Below are positions 16,380 to 25,377 of a stretch of DNA of 64,000 nucleotides, in pieces. The notes beneath the pieces are model-generated. The model had not been told where the DNA came from. It ran no database searches and was given only the letters and a program-made list of their open reading frames with translations. Position 1 is the first letter of the stretch, and every line of letters begins with the position of its first letter. The stretch covers positions 1-64,000 of the forward strand of contig CACYTF010000002.1 in NCBI GenBank assembly GCA_902777335.1, given 5' to 3'. Position numbers and translations under genes: made by a program. The stretch comes from an uncultured Eubacteriales bacterium. GTDB lineage: Bacteria; Bacillota; Clostridia; Christensenellales; Aristaeellaceae.

Positions 16380-19300
16380 TCACTTCTTCACCGTGATGGT
16401 GATGGTGGCCTTTTTGCCGTTCTTGGTCTTTACGGTGATTTTGGCCGTGCCGGCTTTCCTTGCGGTGACCACGCCGCTGCCGGAAACAGTGGCCACCTTT
16501 TTGTTGTCGCTGCTCCACTTCAGCGTCGTGGTGGCTTGCACCGGCTTGAGCACAGCGATGAGCTTCAGCTTCTTGCCCACCTTGACCGTGGCGGTCTTTC
16601 CCTGACTGATGGACACGCCCTTGACGGTCAGCGCTTTGACGTCGCTCGAAACGTACTTGAGCCGGTTCGCCTTTGCGTATCTCTCTGCGGCGGAGCCGGA
16701 GGGCGCGTAAACGATCACCTTGGTCAGCGGCTTCATGACGTCATCCGAGAACCAGTAGTGCAGCACCGAATTGCCGAAGCTAGTCACGGAGGCAGGGATG
16801 TTGATTCTCTTCAGGACCATACAACCAGCGAAAGCCGCGTATGCTATCTCCTTTACGCCGGGAAGGACCGTCACCTCCTCCAAGAACTCACACTTCGCGA
16901 AAGCCCGGTCGCCGATCCTGACGACGCTTCCCGGTATTATCACGCTCTTGAAGCCGGTATAGACAAACGCGTCCACCCCAATCTCAGTCAGGCCGCCGGG
17001 AAGCGTCACCTTCTTCAGCTTTATATTATCGAGAAATGCAGCTGGTCCGATGGTCTTCAGACCGCGGCTGAGTGAGAGCTCCTCTATTTCACCACAGCCA
17101 TAAAACGCTAATGTCCCGATGGTTTTAACGTCGTCCGACATCGAAACACGTTTCAGGGAAGAACACAAAGCGAACGCATCTTCGTCGATGCCCGCCACGC
17201 CCTCGCCGATGGTCACGCTCTGCAGTGTTCTGCAATTATAGAATTCCCTGTACGGTATTATGGATTTGCCGTCACCATAGATAGTCACTGTTTTTAGTTT
17301 GGCTATTTGTCCGATGCCTTCGAATCCATTGCGTTCGGAATTCTCTGTATTCATCAGACAGCATACGGGCACCTTCAGATTCGTAAGGGCCGGGGCTCCG
17401 TTCAAGACTTGTTTTCCACCTTTAGTGACGGTGGCGGGGATCGTCAGGGTCGTCAGAGAATTGCACCCTGAAATGAAATACTGTCCAACGGTGGTTACGC
17501 CTTCGGGCAGCACCAGTTTTTTCAGGGATGTGCAATCCTCAAAAGCGGATTCGCCAACGAAGGTCAGGCCTTTTCCCAGTGAAATACTCGAAAGATTCTT
17601 GCAACCGCTGAAGGCTGAAGCTCCCAGACGCGTAAGGCCGGCGGGCAGCGTGATGCTCTTCAATGCGCTGCATTCAGCAAACGCAAAATCGCCGATGGTT
17701 TTCACAGGGCCCTTGAAGTTCACCTCGGTCAGCTTCTTGCAGTAGGAAAAAGCGCTGTTGCCAATGGAGGATACATCCGTGAACGTTACGCTCGATAATG
17801 CGCTGCAATCAGAAAACGCAGAATCACCAACGGACTTCACTGCACTCTTGAAGGTCACCTTGGTCAGCTTCTTGCAGTTGGAAAAAGCGCTGTTGCCAAT
17901 GGAGGATACATCCGTGAACACTGCGCTCGTCAACGCCTTGCATCCATCAAAGGCATGATCCGAAATGATTGCCTGTTTGCAATTGATAGTCAGGCTCTTC
18001 AGGGTTTTTAAGCCATGGAACGCGCCGCCTATTTTTGCCCCATCAGGGCCGGTGATCGTCACCGTCTGCAGCGCCTTACAGTGCGTAAACTGGCCCTCTC
18101 CCGTCATGCACGCGGGAACGGACACCTGTTTTAGCGACGAACAAGCAAAGAACACGCCGCCGCCACACTTCGACAGGGATGAGGGGACCGTCGCCTCCGT
18201 CAGCGCCGTGCAGTATGAGAACGCGTATTTCACAATGCTGGTCACGGTATTCGGAATCGTCACGCGCTTCACAGACTTGCAGCCGGAGAACGCAGAAGCC
18301 CCGATGGTGGTCACGCCCTCCGGGAGCGTCACACTGGCCAGTGCTTTACAATCTTCAAATACACGGGCTTCGATCACCGTCAAGCCCTTGGATATCTCCA
18401 CGCTCTTCAACGCCTTGCACTGGCTAAAGGCTCTTTCCTCGATGCAGGACACACCGGTAAGCGTCACACGCTCCAGCGCATTGCAGTATAAAAACGCATT
18501 CTTCGCGATCGTCGCTTCCTGGGATATGATCGTCAGACTCTTCAGGGATTTGCAGCCCTGAAAGGCAGTGTCGATCCTGGAACCAGCCGGCCCGGTGATC
18601 GTCACGGTCTCCACTGCCGGGCATTCCTGAAACTGGCCCCATTCCGTCATGCACACCGGGATGGATACCTGCTTCAACGACGTACAGCCGAAGAACGTAC
18701 CATCCCCGATACCGGTTAAGCCATCCGGGATCACGACGCTCTTCAACGACGTACAGCCGGAGAACGTACCATCCCCGATACCGGTTAAGCCATCCGGGAT
18801 CACGACGCTCTTCAGCGCCGTGCAGCCGCGAAACACGTATTCTCCGATATGGGTCAAGGTGGCGGGCAGCGCGATTTCGGTCAGGCTTTTACATTCATAG
18901 AAGGCCCAATCGCCGATGCCGGTCACGCCCTCCGGGATCGTCACACGGGTCAGCGACGCGTGGTGCTGAAAGGCCTGGCTCCCGATCGCCGTCACCGGGA
19001 TGCCCCGGATCACAGCGGGGATGTCGAAAGCCGTCGCCGTTTCGTCCACACCAATCAGCGTGAAGGCGCCGCCCTCGTAGCGGTATTTGCTGACGCCATC
19101 CGGGCCGAACACGGTATCGCCCTCGTTCAGAGGCGCTTCCTCCTCCCCGGGAGACACCGCCACGGGCAGCGCCTCCTCCTCCCCGGGAGACACCGCCACG
19201 GGCAGCGCCTCCTCCTCCCCGACCGGCAGGTATTCCGCCCCGGTTTCAGCTCCGCCCAGGGCGAATTCCGCCTCGTCCACGGGCAGATCCACGGGCTCGG

Positions 19301-19388
19301 AGAACACGTCCTCCTCCGCCAGCGCCGCCGCGGCGGGCAGCAGTAGCGCGATCAGCAGGGCAGCCAGCAGATATGACAGCTTTTTCAT
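16380..19388 (-). CDS. Secreted BspA-like leucine-rich-repeat surface protein with Ig-like (BIG2) C-terminus
   Basis: A 1002-residue exported protein. A signal peptide covers about residues 1-23 (MKKLSYLL then ALA-EED). An acidic region with tandem 14-residue units (EEEALPVAVSPG) follows. Residues of about 110-900 form many LRR_5/BspA-type repeats of 22-23 residues (SLKSVVIPDGLTGIGDGTF pattern). The last 80 residues are a BIG2 Ig-like domain (VSISQGKTATVKVGKKLKL, then WSSDNKKVATVSGSGVVTA). BspA-like proteins bind host matrix or other cells. No LPXTG, SLH or choline-binding anchor is seen. GGAAGGAGAG precedes the chosen ATG; the reading frame upstream of it has no site. A small hairpin (19411-19433) lies in its leader. 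Confidence 0.88.
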   Translation of the reverse strand: MKKLSYLLAALLIALLLPAAAALAEEDVFSEPVDLPVDEAEFALGGAETGAEYLPVGEEEALPVAVSPGEEEALPVAVSPGEEEAPLNEGDTVFGPDGVSKYRYEGGAFTLIGVDETATAFDIPAVIRGIPVTAIGSQAFQHHASLTRVTIPEGVTGIGDWAFYECKSLTEIALPATLTHIGEYVFRGCTALKSVVIPDGLTGIGDGTFSGCTSLKSVVIPDGLTGIGDGTFFGCTSLKQVSIPVCMTEWGQFQECPAVETVTITGPAGSRIDTAFQGCKSLKSLTIISQEATIAKNAFLYCNALERVTLTGVSCIEERAFSQCKALKSVEISKGLTVIEARVFEDCKALASVTLPEGVTTIGASAFSGCKSVKRVTIPNTVTSIVKYAFSYCTALTEATVPSSLSKCGGGVFFACSSLKQVSVPACMTGEGQFTHCKALQTVTITGPDGAKIGGAFHGLKTLKSLTINCKQAIISDHAFDGCKALTSAVFTDVSSIGNSAFSNCKKLTKVTFKSAVKSVGDSAFSDCSALSSVTFTDVSSIGNSAFSYCKKLTEVNFKGPVKTIGDFAFAECSALKSITLPAGLTRLGASAFSGCKNLSSISLGKGLTFVGESAFEDCTSLKKLVLPEGVTTVGQYFISGCNSLTTLTIPATVTKGGKQVLNGAPALTNLKVPVCCLMNTENSERNGFEGIGQIAKLKTVTIYGDGKSIIPYREFYNCRTLQSVTIGEGVAGIDEDAFALCSSLKRVSMSDDVKTIGTLAFYGCGEIEELSLSRGLKTIGPAAFLDNIKLKKVTLPGGLTEIGVDAFVYTGFKSVIIPGSVVRIGDRAFAKCEFLEEVTVLPGVKEIAYAAFAGCMVLKRINIPASVTSFGNSVLHYWFSDDVMKPLTKVIVYAPSGSAAERYAKANRLKYVSSDVKALTVKGVSISQGKTATVKVGKKLKLIAVLKPVQATTTLKWSSDNKKVATVSGSGVVTARKAGTAKITVKTKNGKKATITITVKK

Positions 19389-19550
19389 ATAAGACTCTCC
19401 TTCCAAGAGGCCGACGGCCGGCAGAGCCGTCGGAGCCAGGCGATTCGACGCGGCATCCCCGTTCAGGGCAATGCCGTTGATCGTAGTATAAGAGCCGTCG
19501 CGCCGGCGTGGCGATGGGCGCGGCGCGGCGAAAGGGAAGGTCATCGGCCG

Positions 19551-20741
19551 CTATTCGACCACCATGATGACATCATCCAATACGTAGTGGAAGGTGGGCC
19601 AGGAGGTCTTTTCGTTCTCCTTGTAGCCCTGTTTGAGATCCACGGTGTCCGTTGGGTCCTCCGGGTCCACGCCGGTGTAGTCGCCCTTGAACACGTCGAT
19701 CTTGTGCTTCCTGAAGGCCTCGATGGTCTTGTTCAGCTCGGCCTCGGTGCCGTAGGCGGCGATCTGGCGGTTCAGGTCGGTGACCACCACCCAGCCATGG
19801 TCAAAGCCGGCGCACATGTCGTGACCGAACACGCTGCCCGGCACGTCCTTTTCGATCTCCCGGCCCTCCAGCACCGCCTCCACGGCGCCCAGGACGTAGG
19901 GCGACCAGTTGATGCGGGTGCTGATCAGCGAGGTGCTCGGCGCCACGTCCGCCATGCTCTGGTTGTAGCCCACGTGGACCACGGCCCTGGAGGCGCTGGC
20001 GTCCTCGCAGGCGACGGCGGTGCCGATGGTGTCCGTGTGGTGGGAGATCACCACGCAGCCGTCGTCGATCAGCCGGAGCGCGGCCATGCGCTCCTTGTTG
20101 TAGCTGTTCCAGGCGTTGGTATAGCAAACGCGCATCGTCGCCTGGGGCACGACGGAGCGCACGCCCATCAAGAACGCCGTGTAGCCCGATATGACGTCGG
20201 AGATCGGGTACGCGCCCACGTACCCCACCAGCGCCTGGTCGGCGGTGATCAGGTGGTTGCCGATCATCTCCTTGATCTTCAGGCCCGCGGCGACGCCGGT
20301 GACGTAGCGGCCCTCGTAGATGGCCCCGGCGAAGCTGTGGTAGTTGTCCGGATCGCCGGAGTGGTCGTCCACGCTGTAGGCGCCCTGGCAGAACTGCACG
20401 TCCGGATACTCGCGGGCCGCGTCGATCATCTGGGTGCTGTTGTTGTTGGTGAATATGATCTGGCAGCCCTCGCGCACCAGCTCGCGGATGGGCTCGATCG
20501 TATCATCCTCGGGCACGTTCTTGCGGCTGACCACCTGCACGCGCCCCGGCAGGGCCTTGGTCAGCGCGTCCTCCGCCAGCATGAAATTATAGGTGTAAGG
20601 CGTGCTCTCGTCGTTCTTGTAGATGAAGCCGACCTTCAGCACGGCCACGCCGATGGGCCTGTTCCACACGGTATGGATTGCGCCGAAAACCGCGAGCACC
20701 AGCAGGGCCGCCACGACCGTCGTGATGTTTATGCGCTTCAT
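19551..20741 (-). CDS. BMP-family (basic membrane protein) solute-binding protein, membrane-anchored
   Basis: A 396-residue periplasmic-binding-like protein. Residues 8-28 form an uncleaved-looking hydrophobic anchor without a lipobox cysteine. The rest follows the BMP/PnrA family, whose known members bind purine nucleosides: KVGFIYKNDESTPYTYNF at the start, GCQIIFTNNN, an AAGLKI segment, VGYVGAYPISDVISGYTAF and SHHTDTIGTA. The start MKRINITT has GGGGAGG 8 bases upstream. It lies 20 bases after the HD-GYP receptor gene in the same operon, which lacks any permease or ATPase. It therefore may present a ligand to the receptor rather than feed a transporter (inference). Confidence 0.82.
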   Translation of the reverse strand: MKRINITTVVAALLVLAVFGAIHTVWNRPIGVAVLKVGFIYKNDESTPYTYNFMLAEDALTKALPGRVQVVSRKNVPEDDTIEPIRELVREGCQIIFTNNNSTQMIDAAREYPDVQFCQGAYSVDDHSGDPDNYHSFAGAIYEGRYVTGVAAGLKIKEMIGNHLITADQALVGYVGAYPISDVISGYTAFLMGVRSVVPQATMRVCYTNAWNSYNKERMAALRLIDDGCVVISHHTDTIGTAVACEDASASRAVVHVGYNQSMADVAPSTSLISTRINWSPYVLGAVEAVLEGREIEKDVPGSVFGHDMCAGFDHGWVVVTDLNRQIAAYGTEAELNKTIEAFRKHKIDVFKGDYTGVDPEDPTDTVDLKQGYKENEKTSWPTFHYVLDDVIMVVE

Positions 20742-20761
20742 GCTCGTCCTCCCCTGTCCGT

Positions 20762-23700
20762 TCATTCCTCCGTCTTGGCCGGATACAGCGCCTTCAGATC
20801 GATCTTGCCCTCGTCGATCAGGCGCAGCATGATGTCCACGACCTGCGGGTCAAACTGCGTGCCGCGCCCCTTGCGCATCTCGTTCAGCACGTAGTCAAAA
20901 TCCATCTGCTTGCGGTACACGCGGTTGGCCGTCATGGCGTCGAAGGCGTCCGCCACGCCGATGATGCGCCCGTACTGCGGTATCTCCTCGCCCTTCAGGC
21001 CGTCGGGATAGCCGCGTCCGTCGTAGCGCTCGTGGTGGTACCGGGCGCCCTCCACCACGTTCTTGATCAGCGTGAAGTCCTTCAGTATCTCGGCGCCGCG
21101 GGTCACGTGGGACTTCATGACCGCGTACTCGTCGTCGGTCAGCCGCGCGGGCTTGTTCAGGATGCCGTCCGGGATGCCGATCTTGCCGATGTCGTGCATC
21201 AGAGCCGCGCGGCGCAGGTTTTCGCATTCCTCGTCGCTGAAGCCCAGCTCCTTCGCGATCATCACCGAATACTGGGACACGCGCTGGGAGTGCTGGCTGG
21301 TGCGCTCGTCCTTGGCGTCCACGGCCTTGGCGATGGCGATGATGGTCTCGTTGCCCATCTGAACCTGCTGCCTGGCCAGCTCCAGCTCGTGCTGCTGCTT
21401 TTCCATCATCCGCTGCATCCGGCGGGTCATCACGAACCAGGTCAGCCAGATGATGAACAGCACCGGCACCAGTATGATGTAGACGACGAACCACTGGTTG
21501 TCGTAGATCTCGCTGGCCTTGACCAGCGTGTAGTTGCGCTCGCTGAGGATGTTGCTCCGGTTGTTGTCGAACACAGCCAGGTGGAACGCGTAGCTGCCGG
21601 TGGGCAAATTGGTGTAGGTGATGGTGTTCAGCGCGCTCTGGGGCAGTATCGTCCAGCCGCCGTCAAAGCCCTCCAGCCAGTAGCCCACATACGGGTCCTG
21701 GATGGAGTAGTTGATGATCTCCGGGTACATCTCGATCTTGCTGACGCCGCGGCCGATCTCGATGGTGGCCAGGCGCCCCAGCGCCTGCACCGCGCCGTCC
21801 AGCCGCACGTTCTTGATCGACATGCGATAGGCGTTGATGCCCGAGGAGTAGCTTGCGGTGTCGATGACGAACACGCCCTTGTCGCAGGGCAGGAACAGAT
21901 TGCCCTCCGGGTCGCACCAGTTCCAGGAGTTGGCCGTCAGCGCGCTGTTCAGGCCGCGCTTGGCGTCCAGCAGATCGTAGTTGATGCTCTCGCTGCCGGA
22001 GAGCAGCTCGTCCCGGTCCACGATGTAGATGCCCGCGCTGCTCATCACGAACAGCGTGTTTTCGTCCTTGGCCCAGATGTCGTAGTTGTTGTAATAGGGA
22101 AAGCCGTCCAGCCGGCGGATCGCGCCGTCCGGCTCCATGTAGCACAGGCCGTTGCTGGTCACCAGGAACACGCCCTCGGACTTGGTGTCCTTCACGGTGC
22201 GCAGTATGACGCCGGAGCTCAGCCCGTCGTCGCGGGTGATCATGCGCTTGACCTCTCGGCCCTCCAGCACGGCGATGCCGTCGCCGTCGGTGCCGGCGAG
22301 GATCGTGCCGTCCGACAGCTCGGTCACCGTCAATATCATCGAATTGATCAGGCCGTCGGTGTAGCCGATCGTGCCGGTGATCTGATGGCCGCGGATGAAG
22401 CTGATGCCCGTGTCGCCGCCGGCCATGATCGTGCCGTCCGACAGCTGCTTGACCACGCGGGCGCGGTTGCCGAAGCTGCCGTTGGCGGCGTTGTACAGGT
22501 GCTCGGTGCCGTCCGGCTCCACCTCCAGCAGGCCCTTGCCGTAGGTGCATACCCACAGGTGATCGTCGCTGTCCACCAGCATGCAGCGTATGCGAACGCC
22601 GCTGAGCTTTTCGGTCAGCGCGTTGTTCACCCGGCGGCGGCAGCTCTCGTCCACCACGTCCAGGCCCTTGTCGGTGCCGAAGTAGTAATCGCCCTGCCAC
22701 TTCACCACCGTGTTGACCACGCGGTTGGGCATGCCCACGGTGCTGTACACGTCCTTGAACGCCGACGGCGCCATGCGCAGCAGGCCCAGGCGCGACGACG
22801 TGAACCACAGGTTGCCCTGGTAGTCCATCAGCATGTTGTCGATGGAATTGTTGAATTCGTTGGTGTTGACCGGCTCAAAGGCCTTGTCCCGGTTGATGTA
22901 GCCCACGCCGTTGTCGGCGGAGACGAACAGGTTGCCGTTCACGTAGTACAGGTCGTTCAGGTTGGACAGGCCCTCGCAGGTGCGCACGTCCTTCTGGTCG
23001 AACCAGCCCTCGCCGATCTCGTACACGTACAGGCGATTCGTGGAGGTGCCCGCCAGCAGCACGCCGTCCGGGTCGAAGCACACGCTGTTGAACAGCTCCT
23101 CGCCCCCGGGCAGGCGCAGCGAGCTGAGGATCTGGCCCTTCTGCATCAGAAACAGGCGGCCGTCGGAGGTGACCGCGGCCACGTGCCCGCTGGTGTCGGC
23201 GGCGATCTTGTCCGCGTAGTTGACCTCCTTCAGCGTGTTGATCCGCCGCAGGCCGTTCTTCAGCGTCAGGATCTGCATGCTGCCGGTGGTGCCGATGTAG
23301 TAGTAGCCATCGGAGCTCTGTATGATGGAGCGCACCGAGTTCGAGGGCAGGCCCCTGGACTGGTCCACCACGTTGGCGATTTTTTCATTGATGCAGATGG
23401 ACAGGCCGTTGTCGTTGGTGCCGATCCACAGGCGGCCTTCCTCGTCCACGTACAGGCAGTTCACGTTGCGGACGGACTCATAGCCGTCCATCCAGCGGAA
23501 TTCCCGGCCATTGTAGCGGTACAGGCCGGCGTAGGTGCCGATCCAGAGTATGCCGTCGTTGGTCTGGGCGATGTCGTTGGCCTCGCCGCAGGGCAGGCCG
23601 TTGTTACTGTTGTAGATGGTCTGCACGTAGTTGTTGTAATCGTTCTCCTCGACCGCTTCGGCCCGGGCGGGCAGGCTGGCCCCGGCGCAGCACAGCGCCA

Positions 23701-24304
23701 GCGCCAGCAGCGCCACCACGGCGGCCGCTTCGGGGCGCGGGCCGCCCTTGCGGGCGCGGCGGTCGCGGACCCAGTGCACCAGGCGCAGCAGGAAGTAGAT
23801 CGACAGGAGCGTCAGTATCTTGTCAAAGAAATCCACATAGAACTGGCCGAGTATCTGGCAGAACAGCTGCGGCACGCCGCGCTCGCGCCAGAAGCCCATC
23901 GCGCCGTCGCCCCACAGGTTGCCGGTGCCCCCGCCGTAGAATATGGCGTTCAGCGGCACCGAGATGATGATGGAGGTCAAGGTGGTCATGGCCGCCACCG
24001 TCATGGCGCCCAGTATCGTGGACATGCGGCTCTTCCGGGCCGCGAAGCCCACGATCAGGCCCAGGCCGACGCTGGTCAGGCCGTAGACGGCGTCCGCGCC
24101 GGGGTAGATGCCCTGCATCAGGTTGCCCGCCAGGCCCACCACCGCGCCGGCGAAGGGCCCGGCCACATAGGCGCACAGCACCGTGCCGAACGCGTCCAGC
24201 CACAGGGGCAGGCTGAAATGCAGCGCCAGCATGCGCCCGTAATAGTTCATCAGGATGCATACGATGACAAACAGACCGATCAGAGGTGTCTTCCATTGCT
24301 TCAC
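20762..24304 (-). CDS. Membrane receptor: ECF-S-like domain, beta-propeller, Y_Y_Y domain and HD-GYP c-di-GMP phosphodiesterase
   Basis: An 1180-residue fusion. About residues 1-190 hold 5-6 membrane spans resembling ECF-transporter S components (LPLWLDAFGTVLCAYVAGPF). Residues of about 225-800 form a two-component-regulator-type propeller (repeats such as DGILWIGTYAGLYRY and DHLWVCTYGKG). A Y_Y_Y domain lies at 825-935, a membrane span at 937-960, a short coiled coil, then HD-GYP at 1000-1165 with LMHDIGKIGIPDG and DGRGYPDGLKGEEIP. The HD metal residues and GYP motif are intact, so it should hydrolyse c-di-GMP. The start is GTG with GGAGGG 10 bases upstream. It is the middle gene between two solute-binding proteins. 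Confidence 0.85.
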   Translation of the reverse strand: MKQWKTPLIGLFVIVCILMNYYGRMLALHFSLPLWLDAFGTVLCAYVAGPFAGAVVGLAGNLMQGIYPGADAVYGLTSVGLGLIVGFAARKSRMSTILGAMTVAAMTTLTSIIISVPLNAIFYGGGTGNLWGDGAMGFWRERGVPQLFCQILGQFYVDFFDKILTLLSIYFLLRLVHWVRDRRARKGGPRPEAAAVVALLALALCCAGASLPARAEAVEENDYNNYVQTIYNSNNGLPCGEANDIAQTNDGILWIGTYAGLYRYNGREFRWMDGYESVRNVNCLYVDEEGRLWIGTNDNGLSICINEKIANVVDQSRGLPSNSVRSIIQSSDGYYYIGTTGSMQILTLKNGLRRINTLKEVNYADKIAADTSGHVAAVTSDGRLFLMQKGQILSSLRLPGGEELFNSVCFDPDGVLLAGTSTNRLYVYEIGEGWFDQKDVRTCEGLSNLNDLYYVNGNLFVSADNGVGYINRDKAFEPVNTNEFNNSIDNMLMDYQGNLWFTSSRLGLLRMAPSAFKDVYSTVGMPNRVVNTVVKWQGDYYFGTDKGLDVVDESCRRRVNNALTEKLSGVRIRCMLVDSDDHLWVCTYGKGLLEVEPDGTEHLYNAANGSFGNRARVVKQLSDGTIMAGGDTGISFIRGHQITGTIGYTDGLINSMILTVTELSDGTILAGTDGDGIAVLEGREVKRMITRDDGLSSGVILRTVKDTKSEGVFLVTSNGLCYMEPDGAIRRLDGFPYYNNYDIWAKDENTLFVMSSAGIYIVDRDELLSGSESINYDLLDAKRGLNSALTANSWNWCDPEGNLFLPCDKGVFVIDTASYSSGINAYRMSIKNVRLDGAVQALGRLATIEIGRGVSKIEMYPEIINYSIQDPYVGYWLEGFDGGWTILPQSALNTITYTNLPTGSYAFHLAVFDNNRSNILSERNYTLVKASEIYDNQWFVVYIILVPVLFIIWLTWFVMTRRMQRMMEKQQHELELARQQVQMGNETIIAIAKAVDAKDERTSQHSQRVSQYSVMIAKELGFSDEECENLRRAALMHDIGKIGIPDGILNKPARLTDDEYAVMKSHVTRGAEILKDFTLIKNVVEGARYHHERYDGRGYPDGLKGEEIPQYGRIIGVADAFDAMTANRVYRKQMDFDYVLNEMRKGRGTQFDPQVVDIMLRLIDEGKIDLKALYPAKTEE

Positions 24305-24344
24305 TTGTCTGATCCCTCCTGCCTTGGAACAAATACCGCCGGGT

Positions 24345-25295
24345 CTACATATCCAGCTCGTCCGCCAGGGCCGCGTACTGCTCCATCCAGGCGCGGTATT
24401 GGCCGGATTCCAGCAGCTCGTCGATCACGCCGTTGACGAAGGCGATCAGCTGGTTCTCGCCCTTCCTGGCCGCCACGCGGTCGCCGTCAAAGGCCTCCCC
24501 CTGCGTGAACCGGATGCCGGGAATCAGCGTCAGGCCGCACTCCGGATTGCCCTCGATGTAGGCGCTGCCGCTCTCGATGTCCACCATGGCCGCGTCCGCG
24601 GTGCCGCTCTTGAGGGTGTCGTACACATCCTGCATCACGGACACGCGCCGAAACTGGTGGTAGTTGTACACGTGCTCCGCCATCAGCGCCTCCTGCATCG
24701 AGCCGCTCTGGGCGATGATGTTCCGGTCCTCCAGGCTCCCGATGCCGGTGATGGCCTCGCTGTCGGCGGAGCGGATCATCAGCCCGCTGCCCGCGTTCTC
24801 GCCGCTGAAGTTGTAGCCCTTGGAGAGCGTCATGCGGGCCGCGCGCGCCGGCATGTACATGAGCCCGGAGATCGCCAGGTCGCAGCTGCCCTCGGCCACG
24901 GCGTCCAGCACCGCGCTGAACTCCATCGGCACGATCTCAAGCGCCACGCCCATGCGCTGCGCGATCAGGCGGGCCATCTCCATGTCCGCGCCCACGTAGC
25001 TGTCCTGGCCCTCAAGCCGCGGGTCGATGAACTCCTGGGGCGGGAAGTAGGGCTCGGTGGCCACCCGCAGCACGCCCGTCTCCCGGATGCGGCCGAGCAC
25101 GCCCTCCGCGTCCTCGGGGATGCCGGCGGAGACGTCCATGGAGACGTCCACGTAATTCCACTCGTTTTCCATGTATATCCCGGCGTCCTCGACGTTCTCC
25201 GCCAGGGCGGCGATCCCCGCCGACGCCAGCGCCGCCAGCGCCACGATCAGCGCCAGGGCCCTTCGGCCGCGCCGTTTGCTGCGTGTCACATCCAT
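24345..25295 (-). CDS. Family-3 (amino-acid type) extracellular solute-binding protein
   Basis: A 316-residue exported protein: basic start (TRSKRRGRR), hydrophobic signal to about residue 33 (ALA-E), then a SBP_bac_3 fold with GVLRVATEPYFPPQEF, YVGADMEMARLIAQRMG, CDLAISGL and GTADAAMVDIESGSAY. Such proteins bind polar amino acids. No lipobox is seen. The ATG at 25293-25295 directly abuts GAGGTG; the GTG two codons later (25287-25289) has better spacing and may be the real start. It is first in an operon with the HD-GYP receptor (40-base gap) and has a strong promoter. No cognate permease is nearby. Confidence 0.85.
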   Translation of the reverse strand: MDVTRSKRRGRRALALIVALAALASAGIAALAENVEDAGIYMENEWNYVDVSMDVSAGIPEDAEGVLGRIRETGVLRVATEPYFPPQEFIDPRLEGQDSYVGADMEMARLIAQRMGVALEIVPMEFSAVLDAVAEGSCDLAISGLMYMPARAARMTLSKGYNFSGENAGSGLMIRSADSEAITGIGSLEDRNIIAQSGSMQEALMAEHVYNYHQFRRVSVMQDVYDTLKSGTADAAMVDIESGSAYIEGNPECGLTLIPGIRFTQGEAFDGDRVAARKGENQLIAFVNGVIDELLESGQYRAWMEQYAALADELDM

Positions 25296-25348
25296 CACCT
25301 CATGTCCAAAAGGCCGCGCCTTCGTACAAGCCATAATTTTCTTACTGT

Positions 25349-25377
25349 ATTATAGCCGAACCTCCCGCGCGGGTCAA
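25349..25377 (-). promoter_or_regulatory. Sigma-A promoter of the solute-binding/HD-GYP operon
   Basis: Minus-strand TTGACC (25372-25377), 17-base spacer, TATAAT (25349-25354), about 55 bases before the first start codon. Confidence 0.85.

Follow-up and report, generated by a model that had tools for sequence, protein, structure and literature searches.

Three adjacent genes in the window (the whole 64,000-nucleotide stretch of DNA analysed) encode a family-3 solute-binding protein (SBP3), a large membrane receptor ending in an HD-GYP domain and a BMP-family binding protein (BMP). The reading that we favour, with a probability of about 60%, is that they form a purine base or nucleoside receptor which sets the c-di-GMP level and which receives an amino-acid input through SBP3 in some lineages; the ligand, the docking and the direction of the response are parts of this reading that we infer.

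Organization of the operon

The three genes lie on the minus strand at 25295-19551 as one operon, in the order SBP3 (24345..25295), receptor (20762..24304, 1180 residues) and BMP (19551..20765), and the stop of the receptor gene and the start of the BMP gene overlap by 4 bases. SBP3 was recognized as an amino-acid type binding protein by Pfam PF00497 (SBP_bac_3, E 3.5e-23), and BMP as a member of its family by PF02608 (Bmp, E 6.4e-20). A consensus scan placed a sigma-70-type promoter at 25349..25377 of the same strand (TTGACC-17-TATAAT, 11/12 bases with a 17-base spacer). For SBP3 the start at 25295, at which the first-pass annotation had ended the operon, was preferred over the longest-ORF start at 25334, because the latter is only ~15 bases from the -10 box. 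No permease or ATPase gene was found in the operon, and the domain matches and the promoter scan agree with the earlier description of three genes in one operon with a consensus promoter and without transport genes.

Directly downstream in the window is a gene for a BspA-type leucine-rich repeat protein with a Big_2 domain (16380-19391, minus strand), which was rejected as part of the module as it is not conserved with the three genes. No conserved fourth gene was found beside the trio, any given neighbour being present in at most 3/15 loci. A riboswitch link was also rejected, as Rfam returned none across the 15 receptor loci. A GGDEF gene adjoins the trio at one locus only (L076), and with 57 GGDEF matches in the genome this was not given weight.

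Domain structure and output of the receptor

Pfam and NCBIfam matches, a structure model with fold comparison, alignment and hydropathy analysis divided the receptor into an ECF-S domain (residues 1-180; 23765..24304), a seventh transmembrane helix or former signal peptide (191-216), a propeller (223-870), a Y_Y_Y domain (871-925), an eighth transmembrane helix (TM8, 940-958), a linker and the HD-GYP domain (989-1165; 20810..21340), all on the minus strand. The Pfam scores were 1.4e-42 for HD_5, 2.3e-26 for Reg_prop and 4.7e-8 for Y_Y_Y, and hydropathy revealed the membrane helices of the ECF-S domain, a strong helix at 193-211 and another at 940-958. The helix at 193-211 closes with a conserved ARAE-type sequence and matches the N-terminal signal peptide of five propeller-HD-GYP homologues lacking the ECF-S domain (L084-L088). 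Because of this correspondence, the simplest history would be that an ECF-S gene was fused ahead of a receptor already bearing a signal peptide. Neither a BMP nor an SBP3 gene was found near the five homologues.

The HD-GYP motifs HDIGK, KSH, HHERYDGRGYP and GVADAFDAMT are intact in alignment with solved HD-GYP enzymes, with the metal-ligand positions present, and the HD, the distal His pair and the GYP are kept across the 15 receptor orthologues, which bears out the first-pass assignment of an intact domain. The top match was a 3'3'-cGAMP phosphodiesterase, followed by 4mcw. As the domain scores best against the cGAMP enzyme, c-di-GMP is only the presumed substrate and cGAMP a possible one. 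The genome of the window contains a large c-di-GMP network, with 57 GGDEF and 11 HD_5 matches. Elsewhere in this genome (G000:C59, L216:5467-9064) a GGDEF protein is encoded directly upstream of a second ECF-S/HD-GYP protein, making a cyclase/phosphodiesterase pair; in the second protein the region between the ECF-S and HD-GYP domains has no known domain.

Origin of the ECF-S domain

The first 180 residues had been called ECF-S-like, and the resemblance proved to be real. An NCBIfam model of the CD3073-family S component matched residues 13-174 over nearly its full length with an E value of 4e-17, below the model's own cut-off. In a structure model of this domain (pLDDT 88), which has the six-helix S-component fold, the 21 best structural matches were all ECF S-components (Z 9.5-15.3), with RibU, ThiT, FolT, BioY and PanT at the top and unrelated proteins from Z 8.8 down. 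Asn20, Pro33, Asp37, Gly40, Thr41 and Asp161 are common to fused and stand-alone S-components.

A profile of the domain detected relatives in 66/391 genomes of the class. The closest stand-alone S-components (L201 and L202, ~156 bits) are encoded between nucleoside phosphorylase and EcfT-EcfA genes, and three others (L203, L204 and L206) occur with EcfT/EcfA and a nucleoside hydrolase, to which L206 adds a uridine phosphorylase and L204 a PfkB-type kinase. For second-tier stand-alone relatives the operon comprises a nucleoside hydrolase and the S component and, in many cases, a third gene, in an order like that of QueK-QrtT-QueL; the third gene has no Pfam match and its identity as QueL comes from gene order. 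Altogether, a nucleoside hydrolase or phosphorylase was present within 4.5 kb of 20/48 stand-alone relatives versus 0/107 other loci, the latter being a convenience control of 1.67 Mb. The loci L201:6192-10305 and L202:7389-11953 appear to be dedicated nucleoside ECF transporter operons (phosphorylase, S component, EcfT and EcfA), of which we found no description in the literature.

The domain has been fused to signalling proteins elsewhere too: nine further fusions are to HD-GYP, one of them the protein in the genome of the window (G000:C59), and one is to a hybrid kinase. At L214:5235-8381 (minus strand) the ECF-S domain is joined to a hybrid histidine kinase with HisKA, HATPase, receiver and Hpt domains. 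When 81 ECF-S domains were placed in a tree, those of the receptors fell into one clade (100/99), next to L201/L202 with moderate support (96/72), and the other fusions formed a separate clade (100/99) within a different branch (98/96). Because the two sets of fusions occupy separate supported clades, the ECF-S domain would have been recruited to HD-GYP receptors on at least two occasions, barring a regain of stand-alone forms.

The two binding proteins

BMP is a PnrA-like protein with an N-terminal membrane helix and no lipobox, a lipobox being present in 7/85 receptor-linked copies. Its structure model (pLDDT 92.5) was closest to AtzT (Z 38.7) and 3s99 (Z 37.2), compared with Z ~30 for the nucleoside-binding PnrA, BmpD and Lbp and Z ~20 for sugar-binding proteins. 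AtzT, which has an affinity of 110 nM for guanine, holds the base between Tyr45 and Trp194 and also uses Glu165, Asn218 and Asn220 (PMC6834077). At the AtzT positions, the 85 receptor-linked BMPs have Tyr in 81, Trp in 80, Glu in 81 (plus Asp in two), His in 76 and Asp/Asn in 79, the His and Asp being the residues of 3s99; the Ser97-Phe98 loop is not alignable. On the predicted fold and the conserved stacking pocket, BMP is best read as a purine-type binding protein. Its likeness to AtzT and 3s99 extends from the fold to the purine-stacking pocket, and it differs from them in its N-terminal helix anchor and in its link to a receptor where they have an ABC transporter. In three proteins of 615-690 residues (L267:1489-3558, L268:1665-3620 and L269:1712-3559) a BMP domain forms part of the C-terminal half, and their N-terminal ~260-330 residues have no Pfam match.

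SBP3 has a signal peptide and no lipobox (3/45 receptor-linked copies have one), and its PDB relatives are amino-acid binding proteins. Its pocket contains Arg164 in 45/45 and Asp252 in 37/45 receptor-linked copies (numbered from the ORF start at 25334), which, by analogy with family-3 proteins in general, would be the carboxylate-binding residue and the amino-group site respectively. The earlier suggestion of two ligand classes therefore holds at the level of the pockets, which are conserved as nucleobase-type in BMP and amino-acid-type in SBP3. Between the signal peptide and the binding-protein fold, SBP3 also has a conserved segment, NEWNYVDxSMDVSxGIPED, of which NEWNYVDxSMDVS corresponds to residues 57-69 in the same numbering. 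This segment is specific to receptor-linked copies (nothing comparable was found elsewhere across 10 genomes) and is a candidate docking element.

Conservation of the module

Receptor orthologues with 59-74% identity were found in 15/120 genomes of the family, that of the window included. In all 15 the gene order that the first-pass annotation had proposed to check was kept, with SBP3 directly upstream and BMP directly downstream of the receptor; in one genome the end of the contig truncates BMP. Among the 120 family genomes, BMP and SBP3 of the type found in the trio were confined to these 15; the next SBP3 homologue was 41% identical and partial. BMP-family matches as such were present in 114/120 genomes, and tight co-occurrence with a cognate permease was rejected, as the BMP family is this widespread and the receptor-type BMP is restricted to the receptor-bearing genomes.

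Public genomes contain at least 579 relatives, and a capped set of 80 further loci (54-95% identity) was examined; they belong to Clostridia, Lachnospiraceae and Butyrivibrio, with two Chloroflexota-labelled records. Of these 80, the 75 with enough sequence downstream all have BMP after the receptor, and only 32 have SBP3 ahead of it. Two class-level receptors outside the family (L199 and L200) are both accompanied by BMP. Most of the genomes compared are metagenome-assembled. On the counts above, the core of the module is the receptor plus BMP, with BMP obligate and SBP3 not. In a partial, midpoint-rooted receptor tree of 54 rows, from which the sequence-trimming motif had excluded many Lachnospiraceae rows, the SBP3-less loci were nested inside SBP3-bearing ones with two changes, and this nesting is suggestive of a loss of SBP3 in Lachnospiraceae. 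The trio described at the outset therefore stands as a unit in the family, but an equal partnership of its two binding proteins does not, as the Lachnospiraceae branch lacks SBP3.

Proposed mechanism and alternative explanations

We propose that the membrane-anchored BMP serves as the fixed extracellular partner of the receptor and that it binds, outside the membrane, a purine-type compound (a nucleobase, a nucleoside or something closely related). The ECF-S domain, derived from a nucleoside-linked S-component, would probably provide another site for this ligand class within the membrane, or else act as the point of ligand reception. The propeller and Y_Y_Y domain may form the docking surface, from which the change would be relayed via TM8 and the helical linker to the HD-GYP phosphodiesterase, altering the c-di-GMP level. 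In lineages with SBP3, the amino-acid-binding protein would give the same receptor a second signal. Co-transcription and co-occurrence of the receptor and BMP are not proof of physical contact between them. The module had been described as not built on a transporter; this is true of the operon, which has no permease or ATPase gene, but not of the receptor, which itself holds an S-component of a nucleoside- or queuosine-linked kind, a feature that the first-pass annotation had not related to BMP.

That last affinity raises the question of whether the ligand is instead a queuosine precursor (preQ1, queuine or queuosine), with the module sensing 7-deazaguanines released in the gut. QrtT (PF12822) transports all three compounds (PMC11130926), the second-tier ECF-S relatives resemble the published QueK-QrtT-QueL salvage operon (PMC11477304), and a guanine-type BMP pocket could accommodate a deazaguanine. 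However, the nearest S-components, L201 and L202, adjoin a nucleoside phosphorylase and not queuosine genes, and the likeness of the second-tier operons depends on a third gene assigned as QueL by its position, so we consider a queuosine-type ligand unlikely.

The receptor ectodomain matches those of hybrid two-component sensors (4a2l, 3v9f and 3ott), and propeller/Y_Y_Y ectodomains of other proteins sense sugars directly, which counts against a purine receptor. The propeller might accordingly sense a saccharide-like ligand itself, with BMP and SBP3 merely co-regulated and feeding ABC permeases encoded elsewhere; the genome of the window does have a BPD_transp_2 permease pair next to a paralogous BMP gene (G000:C24), and the ATPase-permease order is seen in related genomes. 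The confinement of the receptor-type BMP and SBP3 to receptor-bearing genomes, against a BMP family found in nearly all, the rarity of the lipobox in both proteins and the lack of a conserved fourth gene argue otherwise, and we rate this explanation slightly below a queuosine ligand. Least probable to us is an importer-receptor, in which the ECF-S domain would still transport via a shared EcfAT and report the flux to HD-GYP. The genome has one EcfT gene, and the receptor retains the core residues Asn20, Asp37 and Asp161 in common with transporter S-components. That EcfT gene is away from the trio, however, and the receptor has no linked Ecf gene, its operon carrying neither EcfT nor EcfA. In addition, position 24 of the first transmembrane helix, a small residue in 79% of transporter S-components, is mostly Lys/Arg in the receptors, as would suit a lost EcfT docking; we rejected this position as proof of such a loss and regard it as suggestive only. 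A purine-type receptor remains our preferred reading.

Relation to known systems

In NspS-MbaA of Vibrio cholerae the receptor is made up of a membrane c-di-GMP enzyme and a binding protein dedicated to it (PMC8967002). Here too a binding-protein gene adjoins the gene of a membrane c-di-GMP-type enzyme with no permease in the operon, but the polyamine-binding protein is replaced by BMP and SBP3 (up to two binding proteins), and the GGDEF-EAL output by HD-GYP (HD_5) behind an ECF-S and propeller sensor. Extracellular purine sensing is coupled to c-di-GMP in the dCache_1PU sensors, as in the V. cholerae cyclase VC2224, which responds to inosine and guanosine (PMC11245519), although the purine there binds the receptor's own Cache domain and not, as proposed here, a separate BMP and an ECF-S domain. 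As its parts differ from both, the module is filed in neither class. Its first 180 residues share the fold and core residues of QrtT/CD3073-type S-components, from which they differ in being fused to a receptor in an operon without EcfT/EcfA; its Reg_prop/Y_Y_Y ectodomain is that of hybrid two-component sensors, whose HisKA, HATPase and receiver domains are absent and replaced by an HD-GYP output. We found no paper in the open-access literature on an S-component serving as a sensor with HD-GYP output, which is not proof of novelty.

A broader evolutionary proposal, which we put forward tentatively and at somewhat less than even odds, is that an importer's S-component of the nucleoside/queuosine group became the membrane sensor of second-messenger receptors at least twice and independently, in one line with a purine-binding BMP as the obligate ligand-presenting subunit, so that a receptor made from two different uptake systems would sense purine-type compounds without importing them. 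To our knowledge, the signals that act on c-di-GMP enzymes have been identified in few cases. The module occurs widely among Clostridia of the gut and rumen, as its at least 579 relatives attest. If the proposed function is correct, it would point to purine-type compounds as a signal that can be tested in numerous gut bacteria, would make the ligands of the unassigned ECF-S fusions, as an entire group, directly testable, and would show a route from uptake proteins to receptors.
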